Source: Bacteroidota bacterium
Lineage (GTDB): Bacteria; Bacteroidota; Bacteroidia; Cytophagales; Cyclobacteriaceae
DNA: 64,000 nucleotides
Direction: 5' to 3'
Assembly (NCBI GenBank): GCA_024280115.1
Contig: JAJRQT010000203.1
Span: forward strand, 1 to 64,000
Below the pieces are notes generated by a model. That model did not search any database. It was not told where the DNA came from and saw nothing but the letters and a program-made list of their open reading frames with translations. Position 1 is the first letter of the stretch. Every line of letters begins with the position of its first letter. Shown here piece after piece: positions 5,157 to 8,153 of this stretch. Position numbers and translations under genes: made by a program.

Positions 5157-6593
5157 ATGAGTCCAGTGTCAGCACCCAGAGTTCAGCACCCAGCACCTGT
5201 AATTAGATTGTTTTTATTTTTTGTGATAATTGCGCTTTCACTTCCGTCATTTGCCCAGTCCACCCTGAACAATCAAAAAATTGATGGCTACAAGGGCATT
5301 TGGTTTACACTAGGTCAGTTTTCAGAATATGGAGATAAATACTCCGGGGGATTAGGAACCTACACTGCAAAACACAGGCCACTGGCAATTTATACTCCTG
5401 AGGTTAAGAAAACATTTTTCGTCTATGGAGGAACTACCGGACCGGATGAGAAACACCTATTATGCATGATATCATATTTTGACCATAAAACGGGGAAAGT
5501 ACCAAAACCAACAGTTGTTTACGACAAAGGAGGAGTCGAAGATCCTCATGATAATCCAAGTCTTGCCATTGATAAAGATGGATACCTTTGGGTTTTCGTT
5601 AGCGGGAGGGGAAGAAAACGTCCAGGATTTAAATATAAAAGCGACAAACCCTTTGATATCGAATCCTTTTCAAAAATCACTGAAGAAGAAATGACTTATC
5701 CTCAACCTTTGTGGGATGATGACATGGGATTTTTTCACTTCTTTACTAAATACACGGGTGTCAGAGAACTGTACTTTGAAACCAGCAAAGACGGCATTTC
5801 ATGGGTTGAGGATAAAAAGTTAGCTGGGATCATCGAGGAAGGCGCTACCAAGAGCGGACATTATCAGGTAAGTGGCAAACATGAAAATTTGATTTGTACG
5901 TTTTTCAATCGCCACCCAAATGGCAATGTTGATAAAAGAACGGATTTGTATTATGCACAGACAACGGATTTTGGCAAGACTTGGACGGATATCTTCAGGA
6001 AAAACATCGATTTACCTATGACCACTGTCAATTGTGGCGCCCGCCTGATTGATTATGCAAGTCCTGGAAAAAATGTGTATTTAAAGGATTTGAATTTTGA
6101 CCGGAATGGAAACCCTGTTTGCCTGTATATTACAAGTGACGGCTATGAACCGGGGCCAAAAAATAATCCAAGAGATTGGAAGGTGACATACTTTGATGGA
6201 AGTGAATGGAAAACATCAATTGTTTGCCAATCAGATCACAACTACGATATGGGGAGTCTTTACATCAAAGGAAATCATTGGACTGTAATTGCACCGACAG
6301 GCGATGGACCACAGATATACCAAACCGGGGGAGAGGTAGAAATTTGGCAAAGTGTAGATTCCGGGAAAACATGGAAAATAAAGAAAACCGTTACGCAGGG
6401 TAGCAGAAACAACCACACTTATGTGCGACGTCCGGTAAATGCGAAAGATCCATTTTTCAGCTTTTGGGCTGATGGTGATCCTACAAGTTTTTCGAGTTCG
6501 TTTTTGTATTTTTCAGATTCAAAGGGCCGGAGGGTATATCAATTACCATACAAAATGGATGCAGAATTTATAAAACCAATAAAACTCAAATAG
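5157..6593 (+). CDS. BNR-4 beta-propeller glycan-active enzyme (lyase/rhamnosidase-like)
   Basis: This 478-residue exported protein is built of BNR/Asp-box blades (SKDGISWVE, TTDFGKTWTD, SVDSGKTWKI) in the BNR_4 style. The conserved N-terminal stretch GYKGIWF...YSGGLGTY and the segment DPHDNPSLAIDKDGYLWVF support the assignment. Propellers of this type include the PL24/PL25 ulvan lyases, PL42 and the GH145 rhamnosidase class, all acting at rhamnose-glucuronate linkages; which one applies here is inference. The signal peptide ends in LPSFAQ. The first 16 residues (SAPRVQHPAP) are odd and come from a small repeat of cagcaccca, so translation may start later, for example at TTG 5208. Six bases separate it from the sulfatase gene. 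Its last bases are duplicated downstream of a RAYT insertion. Confidence 0.85.
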   Translation: MSPVSAPRVQHPAPVIRLFLFFVIIALSLPSFAQSTLNNQKIDGYKGIWFTLGQFSEYGDKYSGGLGTYTAKHRPLAIYTPEVKKTFFVYGGTTGPDEKHLLCMISYFDHKTGKVPKPTVVYDKGGVEDPHDNPSLAIDKDGYLWVFVSGRGRKRPGFKYKSDKPFDIESFSKITEEEMTYPQPLWDDDMGFFHFFTKYTGVRELYFETSKDGISWVEDKKLAGIIEEGATKSGHYQVSGKHENLICTFFNRHPNGNVDKRTDLYYAQTTDFGKTWTDIFRKNIDLPMTTVNCGARLIDYASPGKNVYLKDLNFDRNGNPVCLYITSDGYEPGPKNNPRDWKVTYFDGSEWKTSIVCQSDHNYDMGSLYIKGNHWTVIAPTGDGPQIYQTGGEVEIWQSVDSGKTWKIKKTVTQGSRNNHTYVRRPVNAKDPFFSFWADGDPTSFSSSFLYFSDSKGRRVYQLPYKMDAEFIKPIKLK

Positions 6594-6611
6594 CTATGAA
6601 AATTTTACACA
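6542..6611 (+). repeat. 70-bp direct repeat, left copy
   Basis: This copy is identical base for base to 7245-7314. It holds the last codons and stop of the BNR gene and the first 16 bases of an esterase-like start (ATG at 6596) that then runs into the inserted DNA. Confidence 0.95.
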
Positions 6612-6636
6612 CTCTCATATTTTTTCCCGTAAGGCC

Positions 6637-6660
6637 CTTGTTGGTCTTGTGACCAACAAG
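6637..6660. repeat. REP-like palindrome, left of RAYT
   Basis: This is a perfect inverted repeat: a 10-bp stem CTTGTTGGTC with loop TTGT. The stem core TTGGTC/GACCAA is the same as in the right-hand palindrome, and the loop is its reverse complement, so the two form an inverted REP pair around the transposase gene. Confidence 0.9.
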
Positions 6661-6683
6661 CTCATTTGTTAAATTAGCAATTG

Positions 6684-7205
6684 ATGGGAAATGACAAAAT
6701 CTACTTTTTTACTGCATCAACACTAAATTGGACACCTCTATTTTTCGATTCAGGGTTGAAATTAATTATCCTTAATAGTATAAAATTCCTTTCCGTAGAA
6801 AAGGCTATAAGAATTTACGGGTTTGTTATTATGCCAAACCATATCCATTTAATTTTAATGCCATTGGCCAACCCGAAATTTAAAAATATACAGTTAAGCT
6901 TTATGCGGTTTACAGCTCAAAAAATCAAATTTTACCTTATAGATAATTCTCCTGAAAAACTTGATGACCTTCTTGTAAATAAGATGGATAGGACATATCA
7001 GATTTGGCAACGTAATTCTTTAGCTATAGAATTGTATTCAAGAAAAATGGTTGAACAAAAATTGGATTATATTCATAATAATCCTTGTCAGGGAAAGTGG
7101 ATGTTGGGAGATTCTCCATTGGATTACCCATGGAGTTCGTTCAAATTTTATGAGGAGAAAAATGATCGATATAATTTTTTAACTCATTATATGGATGATG
7201 TGTAA
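6684..7205 (+). CDS. REP-associated tyrosine transposase (RAYT, Y1/HUH type)
   Basis: This single-strand DNA transposase of the IS200/IS605-related RAYT group acts on REP palindromes. The HUH metal motif is in MPNHIHLIL, preceded by YGFVI as in the family. The C-terminal region has the conserved KLDYIHNNPCQGKW and DYPWSSFKFY segments. The length of about 173 residues is normal and no frame is broken, so it may be active. A TTG at 6681 is followed at once by ATG 6684, and a stop codon lies just upstream at 6675, so ATG is the simplest start. Matching palindromes sit 23 bp upstream and 11 bp downstream of the gene, as expected for a RAYT with its own substrate. Confidence 0.9.
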   Translation: MGNDKIYFFTASTLNWTPLFFDSGLKLIILNSIKFLSVEKAIRIYGFVIMPNHIHLILMPLANPKFKNIQLSFMRFTAQKIKFYLIDNSPEKLDDLLVNKMDRTYQIWQRNSLAIELYSRKMVEQKLDYIHNNPCQGKWMLGDSPLDYPWSSFKFYEEKNDRYNFLTHYMDDV

Positions 7206-7216
7206 ATGTGGGCATT

Positions 7217-7240
7217 CCAGTTGGTCACAAGACCAACTGG
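7217..7240. repeat. REP-like palindrome, right of RAYT
   Basis: This is a perfect inverted repeat: a 10-bp stem CCAGTTGGTC with loop ACAA, followed by a run of G. It is the inverted counterpart of the hairpin at 6637-6660. Confidence 0.9.
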
Positions 7241-7244
7241 GGGG

Positions 7245-7314
7245 ATTACCATACAAAATGGATGCAGAATTTATAAAACCAATAAAACTCAAATAGCTAT
7301 GAAAATTTTACACA
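7245..7314 (+). repeat. 70-bp direct repeat, right copy
   Basis: This is a perfect copy of 6542-6611. It ends inside the fifth to sixth codon of the real esterase gene. The BNR C-terminal codons it carries are non-functional here because no frame leads into them. Confidence 0.95.
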
Positions 7315-8153
7315 GACTAACTATTATTTTACTTTTAGTATTTTCAATATTCCAATCTTACGCCCAGGATAAGCCATACGATGAATTAGAAGGAGCAGAT
7401 ATTCGGGTTTATAAAACGGTGGATGGTTTTGACTTAAAATTAAATATTATCTACCCTGAGCAATATAAGAAAGGAAAGAAATATCCGACCATAGTTTTCT
7501 TTTTCGGCGGCGGCTGGAATGCAGGAAATGTACATCAATTCGAGCAACATTGCCATTACCTTGCATCGAAGGGCATGATAGCCATGGCAGCCAATTATCG
7601 CGTAAAATCCAGAAACAATTCAACTCCATTTGACGCGGTAGAAGATGCGAAGTCAGCAATCAGGTGGATACGGGAGAATGCAAAGGAACTGGGTGTAAAT
7701 AAGAAGAAAATCGTTGCTGCCGGAGGATCAGCAGGTGGACACTTAGCCGCTTGTACGGCAATAATTCCCGGTTATAATGCGGCAAATGAAAATAAAAATA
7801 TTAGTTCTAAGCCCAATGCTTTGGTATTGTTCAATCCTGTAGTTAATACTTTGCAGGAAAGATTTATTAAGCGTTTTGGAGATAATGCCAAATCCATTTC
7901 TCCAGCTCACCATGTAATTTCAAAACTTCCGCCTACAATCATATTTCATGGAACAGCGGACACGACAGTCCCATTTGAAACCATCACAGATTTTCAATCG
8001 AAAATGGAGGCTTCGGGAAATACATGTTATGTGGTGCCTTTCGAGGGTCAGGGTCATGGCTTTTTCAATTATGGGAGAAGTGAGCATAAATATTATGAGT
8101 TGACCATCGAAAAGACAGAGTCATTTTTACGTGAATTGAAGTATATTAAATGA
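7299..8153 (+). CDS. Secreted alpha/beta-hydrolase, carbohydrate esterase-like
   Basis: A 284-residue exported esterase with signal peptide MKILHRLTIILLLVFSIFQS and cleavage near YAQ. The oxyanion motif FFGGGW is at 68-73, the nucleophile Ser144 is in AGGSAGG, the acid is Asp221 in HGTAD, and the base is His253 in GQGHGF. This is the BD-FAE/acetyl-xylan-esterase-like group of the alpha/beta fold, and it probably removes acetyl or similar groups from the glycan processed by its neighbours. I chose ATG 7299 because the preceding open frame comes from the RAYT insertion, whereas this start yields a clean signal peptide and restores the pre-insertion operon. Its stop overlaps the next start (ATGA at 8150-8153), showing translational coupling with the rhamnosidase. 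Confidence 0.9.
   Translation: MKILHRLTIILLLVFSIFQSYAQDKPYDELEGADIRVYKTVDGFDLKLNIIYPEQYKKGKKYPTIVFFFGGGWNAGNVHQFEQHCHYLASKGMIAMAANYRVKSRNNSTPFDAVEDAKSAIRWIRENAKELGVNKKKIVAAGGSAGGHLAACTAIIPGYNAANENKNISSKPNALVLFNPVVNTLQERFIKRFGDNAKSISPAHHVISKLPPTIIFHGTADTTVPFETITDFQSKMEASGNTCYVVPFEGQGHGFFNYGRSEHKYYELTIEKTESFLRELKYIK

Follow-up and report, generated by a model that had tools for sequence, protein, structure and literature searches.

A gene for a RAYT, a Y1 transposase of the HUH class, lies between a BNR-repeat gene and an esterase gene in the 64,000-nucleotide stretch of Bacteroidota DNA that we analysed (the window), and its segment is enclosed by two identical copies of the junction that joins these neighbours. 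How did it come to stand between two copies of its own site? In the literature text accessible to us, RAYT genes figure as domesticated transposases, which spread REPs but are themselves immobile. The accessible text of one paper finds "no evidence of tnpAREP mobility" and compares these genes with housekeeping genes (PMC8266576), and according to that of another, larger duplications of the target site are not produced by IS200/IS605 elements (PMC2817692). The literature searched, at the level of titles and abstract openings and with few subscription papers, contained no report of long target duplications at RAYT genes.

The original prediction had described a perfect 70-bp direct repeat around a 633-bp RAYT segment, with the left copy completing the BNR gene and the right copy supplying the start of the esterase gene, and both statements are borne out by the coordinates (Table 1). 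The 70-nt copies are 100% identical at a spacing of 703 nt; the BNR stop at 6593 falls in the left copy and the esterase ATG at 7299 in the right. The chance expectation for a 70-mer repeat in the window is near 1e-31, and every one of the 41 30-mers that recur within 5 kb in the window comes from this pair. The 633-nt insert (6612-7244) consists, in order, of a palindrome, the RAYT gene and an inverted palindrome. Homologues of the esterase in L075 and L076 align from residue 1 of a protein that starts at 7299. The mechanically called esterase reading frame reaches back to 7206, inside the insert, by way of an in-frame upstream start (window 7206-7298), and automatic annotation may lengthen the protein by 31 codons into the insert.

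Table 1. Features of the occupied junction, in window coordinates.
Feature	Position	Strand	Remarks
BNR-repeat gene (BNR_4, PF15892)	5157..6593	+	last codons and stop inside left repeat copy
Left copy, duplicated target, 70 bp	6542..6611	+	single junction in congeners
Left insert tip, 25 nt, target copy to left palindrome	6612..6636	.	read directly
Left REP-like palindrome CTTGTTGGTC-TTGT-GACCAACAAG	6637..6660	+	inverted repeat
RAYT / TnpA_REP-like Y1 transposase, 173 aa, intact	6684..7205	+	NHIH ... WQ ... YIHNNP; NF047646 73.4 bits
Right REP-like palindrome, same core, inverted relative to left	7217..7240	-	inverted repeat
Right insert tip, 4 nt	7241..7244	.	read directly
Right copy, duplicated target, 70 bp	7245..7314	+	direct repeat
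BD-FAE-type esterase gene	7299..8153	+	ATG 7299 inside right repeat copy

The protein encoded by the insert carries NHIH (His53, His55) and Tyr129 within YIHNNP, corresponding to the HUH motif and a single catalytic tyrosine, and columns H53, H55, W108, Y129, N133 and P134 are invariant in eight aligned sequences. Its score against the NCBIfam RAYT model lies below the cut-off of 80. With a profile built from eight relatives, the TnpArep chain 4er8 is matched at an E value of 2.2e-5; the window protein as a single sequence reaches 0.23, short of significance. The NHIH, WQ and YIHNNP motifs fit subclass 2.6 as set out in the accessible text of Quentin et al. 2018 (PMC6006769), and the protein is probably a RAYT / TnpA_REP (REPtron) of that subclass. 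The gene lies between palindromes of inverted orientation, beside neither of which the GT[AG]G foot of gammaproteobacterial REPs could be found by eye; that foot is not defining for subclass 2.6, because the structures of this subclass are called atypical in the same accessible text (PMC6006769). With one mismatch at most, the window palindrome occurs at 14 other places in the genome, 13 of which we read, and with two mismatches at most it occurs at 39 places versus 28 for a reversed control pattern, so that only the close matches carry weight. Several of the REP copies in the window's own genome (L128-L140) show the start of a second GTTGGTGACA-type palindrome some 50-60 nt downstream, and these copies are possible non-autonomous units.

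We considered whether the 70 bp belongs to the element or to the host. A search for the BNR gene in 98 genomes, the window's own included, gave a match in 15. In the two best relatives, the congeners G001 and G002, whose BNR proteins are 76% and 73% identical to that of the window, the esterase gene follows directly after the BNR gene with one junction and no RAYT, as had been predicted for the same operon lacking the insert. The junction has diverged in these genomes yet aligns through, and since it is single and alignable, the 70 bp is host DNA and both ancestral junctions have been kept at the occupied site. With X standing for the 70 bp, the site has changed from A-X-B to A-X-R-X-B. Doubled copies in RAYT-less relatives, or dispersed copies elsewhere, were named in advance as signs that the repeat is no insertion product; neither was found in the relatives, the window's own genome or the collected loci. 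The 25-mers of the repeat occur in no other collected locus, same-place loci aside, and when 6542-7314 was searched as DNA against the window's own genome, it gave its own place and two short matches to the left-palindrome region. We rejected the ideas of a dispersed repeat and of a part of the element, since no further copy was found and the 70 bp aligns with congener host sequence. The RAYT is present once in the draft genome by DNA search, the same search found no donor copy there, and the closest relative among the matches listed from 245 genomes is 55% identical; the insertion event was therefore not watched between two known states.

Five RAYT insertions, that of the window among them, have relatives in which the site is empty, and their duplications measure 70, 67, 79, 117 and 142 bp. 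At L124 (G003) a different RAYT, 31% identical to that of the window, lies between two genes; its duplication measures 67 nt, is 95.5% identical and begins with the ATG of the second gene. This gene is present in five of the six other genomes of the genus, with no RAYT at any of the five loci; the two genes are adjacent in G000 and G006 and lie about 290-540 nt apart in G001, G002 and G004. A third RAYT, at L113 (G005), has a 79-nt duplication (88.6% identical) that spans an intergenic stretch and the first codons of the next gene, which is found in five of the six other genomes, none of these five with a RAYT. The duplicated stretch gave no blastn match in the five congeners; in G000 and G002 the genes lie about 40-50 nt apart and the alignment runs across the junction. 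A single junction at this site, as gene spacing and global alignment suggest, is the weakest of these readings. At L284 (G212) two genes converge, and a duplication of 117 nt (94% identical) runs across their 3' ends; in G284 the site is single, and its alignment breaks off on the left with the final base of copy 1 and resumes on the right with the first base of copy 2. At L297, in an assembly of about 10 contigs (G108), the duplication is 142 nt long and 98.6% identical, and G193 has the stretch once, together with the degenerate REP-like palindrome that the stretch holds. G233 (L376) also has the stretch once, with a short REP doublet inside it and no long duplication; the doublet, of some 75 nt at about 1390-1465 of L376, lies in the intergenic stretch that holds the RAYT in L297, and a second long match in L376 falls by its coordinates in a paralogous neighbour gene. 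As judged from these alignments, each of the five insertions placed a unit in a site that was single-copy and kept both ancestral junctions.

The same relatives allow two other histories of these sites to be weighed. If a tandem X had existed first and the RAYT had landed exactly at its seam, the resulting geometry would be possible, but none of the 22 relatives over the five loci shows a tandem, 12 of them having a detectable X, and a repeated landing exactly at the seam is improbable; we regard this order of events as very unlikely. Of the two routes originally put forward, then, the coupling of insertion to duplication fits, and recombination through a pre-existing tandem duplication is disfavoured. 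An assembly artefact might be suspected in a draft genome of 236 contigs, but the same architecture is found in independent assemblies, including the one of about 10 contigs, and diverged copies (88.6-98.6% identical) are not expected from a graph artefact, which makes this explanation scarcely credible.

Long direct repeats are present at other RAYT loci too. Our survey sample comprises 198 of the RAYT loci, taken down the lists of matches from the window's own genome and from two overlapping genome sets (98 relatives and 245 genomes of the family), after removal of duplicates (L096, identical to L008; L156, to L005; L186, to L111) and of 8 of 126 loci that gave no tblastn match (L009-L016). 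One script took the best repeat of at least 44 bits within about 300 nt on either side of the RAYT and further required that it occur in two copies and no more, be 35 nt or longer and have 30 nt or more outside hairpins; overlap with a host gene was counted for reading frames of at least 120 codons. By this test 25 of the 198 loci have a two-copy, largely non-palindromic direct repeat, several of them doubtful on inspection, and in 11 of the 198 the repeat overlaps a neighbouring host gene. Of the 48 loci whose RAYT is at least 43% identical to that of the window, 13 pass and 7 show host-gene overlap. Random 520-nt segments of other loci (drawn from L020-L095, among them the window's own locus, L074, and L085 with part of a RAYT) passed in 1 of 304 cases and overlapped a host gene in none, giving Fisher p values of 5e-10 for passing and 3e-5 for host-gene overlap, and of 360 segments taken from the RAYT loci themselves at a distance from the gene, 2 passed, again with no host-gene overlap. 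When upstream flanks were compared with downstream flanks, REP arrays included, matches of at least 60 bits were found in 21 of 116 cases at the same locus versus 1 of 13,340 cross-locus pairs. The enrichment of such repeats around RAYTs is strong, and their recurrence rejects a single lucky event. The identity of the two copies ranges from 75% (L287, L359) to 100% in the window, as would follow from events that recurred at different times.

The remaining 173 loci do not pass, and we suggest that they lack a clean duplication owing to age or to another route. Six of the 25 passes are doubtful, L325 being a RAYT tandem and L122, L141, L162, L301 and L324 having hairpins inside the repeat. Among the 11 host-gene overlaps, REP hairpins lie in or against the repeat at L292 and L293, and L326 and L331 were counted by the script alone. 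The flanking repeats of L099, L117, L155, L205, L214 and L325 were rejected as target duplications, these being REP arrays or RAYT tandems; at L155 (G011), from 1201-1260 and again downstream, about 60 nt of the 3' end of a host gene is repeated several times in the REP array around the RAYT. Left out of the 11 are L104, L335 and L357, where the end of a host reading frame is doubled across the RAYT with 579-673 nt from RAYT to right copy, and with an extra reading frame in that interval at L104. A phylum-wide draw, kept out of the 198, added 27 RAYT loci, 26 of them from other families; 6 have a flank repeat of at least 44 bits, 3 pass (L388, L389, L404) and none of the 27 overlaps a host gene. 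REP units that lack a transposase gene have a duplication in 1 of 13 cases. RAYTs are also found near a BNR gene in another genus, at a different spot of the cluster, about 0.6 kb downstream at L299 (G146; by eye), which has a repeat of its own of 113 bp, and about 1.3 kb downstream at L085/L105 (G038; by tblastn).

Other Y1 transposases served as controls. When all matches to the IS200 model NF033573 were fetched and taken unsplit, with a repeat threshold of at least 40 bits, 10 of 28 loci had a flanking repeat, all ten with low-scoring proteins (L244 and later). Low-scoring Y1 proteins are thus also flanked by repeats, and a flanking repeat by itself does not set RAYTs apart. Inspection of L246, L250, L253, L254, L256 and L262 found palindrome-rich repeats or arrays. 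Four of these (L246, L250, L253, L262) combine a low score against the IS200 model with long palindrome-rich flanking repeats, and their proteins are possibly of subclass 1.2, which is listed as lacking such structures in the accessible text of PMC6006769. A second control, with the split chosen after the first result, was confined to high-scoring copies, of which 20 were added for a total of 29; six of these, in which no reading frame was found, were dropped. Among the 23 tested, most of which belong to a few elements of three genomes, a repeat of at least 44 bits was present in one (L281), and it lies 49 nt from one IS end and 70 nt from the other, as compared among the copies of G092.

The borders of the duplications, defined as those of the maximal repeats, indicate what moved. 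Between each palindrome and the nearby end of the duplication lie 5-6 nt at L284 and L297, which identifies REP-RAYT-REP as the unit that moves, and L290 has gaps of 2 and 6 nt; borders this close at the three loci suggest enzyme-made ends. Gaps are looser elsewhere (left and right: 25 and 4 nt in the window, 6 and 24 at L113, 8 and 17 at L124, 96 and 18 at L299, 47 and 15 at L296), and they range over all from 2 to 96 nt on the left and from 4 to 24 nt on the right, one overlapping. The length of the duplication varies from 67 to 142 bp in the five insertions for which a relative has the empty site and from 35 to 160 nt in the 11 host-gene overlaps, so that over all candidates it is perhaps 35-160 bp. 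The repeats at L290, L296 and L141 overlap no gene of at least 110 codons, which tends to argue against mere selection for intact neighbours.

In another conceivable history the unit was inserted beside X without duplication, a REP-driven tandem duplication of X and RAYT followed, and the second RAYT was precisely lost. Tandem REP arrays abound near RAYTs and a tandem RAYT remnant was seen (L325, L155, L099), and the L297 stretch holds its degenerate REP-like palindrome; but the duplicated stretches of the window, L113 and L124 contain no REP palindrome, and five or more independent loci would each have had to pass through three steps that were all precise at the ends of the element. We consider it improbable.

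The best reading is that REP-RAYT-REP units of Bacteroidota are mobile and that their insertion leaves a long target duplication of variable length. For the window, we put at roughly 70% the probability that insertion of the unit at the BNR-esterase junction itself duplicated the 70-bp target, in a mode that recurs among RAYTs of the family; the gene-less REP doublet in G233, inserted with no long duplication, counts against it. We infer that the RAYT protein carried out the insertion. The two ends of the unit would be joined to opposite strands of the target, tens of nucleotides to about 150 nt apart, and the single-stranded stretches between the joining points would then be filled in; the variable length of the duplication suggests that the second joining is loosely positioned.

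The main rival to such staggered joining with fill-in is replication-coupled template switching, in which the nascent strand copies A and X, jumps to a single-stranded RAYT unit and rejoins the old template behind its exit point. X would be copied twice, with the RAYT merely supplying the single-stranded unit. This yields exactly A-X-R-X-B with X of variable length, and for relatives in the IS200/IS605 group single-stranded circular intermediates and a lagging-strand template are described in the accessible text of PMC6006769. Template switching should produce deletions as well as duplications, however, and our survey is blind to deletions; the position of both borders 2-6 nt from the palindromes at L284, L297 and L290 also speaks against it. 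We regard this route as unlikely, though it deserves more weight than the histories considered above.

The unit joins familiar traits to less familiar ones. As in RAYT / TnpA_REP systems, so far as the accessible literature describes them, a Y1 HUH transposase with NH[LIV]H, WQ and YIH[QN]NP lies between inverted palindromes, related palindromes occur elsewhere in the genome, and the RAYT of the window is present in one copy; in contrast to those systems, units of the window type stand at sites that are empty in relatives and have a long target duplication around them. With IS200/IS605 elements it shares related Y1 chemistry and subterminal hairpins, but those elements have several near-identical copies per genome where the own draft genome here has one, and the window unit differs further in its 70-bp duplication and in the empty congener site. 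Retroelements that insert by target-primed reverse transcription produce target duplications of variable length from two nicks made apart. The insert of the window, unlike these, has no reverse transcriptase and encodes a DNA transposase of the HUH class.

Repeated insertion scars together with unoccupied relatives indicate that the RAYT gene unit does move. More tentatively, and at somewhat less than even odds, Bacteroidota RAYTs may be active transposons with a route of their own, in which a palindrome end would be joined to a nicked strand and the other end captured on the opposite strand about 35-160 nt away, fill-in then producing the long and variable duplication. If so, they would be an HUH counterpart of target-primed insertion, the unit would land inside operons without breaking genes, and the direct repeats would allow its later clean loss by recombination. 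The long duplication is a signature that makes the mechanism of RAYT insertion testable, and as a simple genomic criterion for recent RAYT insertions it offers direct repeats, from tens of bp to about 150 bp long, on either side of the unit. The duplication also explains how RAYT genes can settle harmlessly inside operons.
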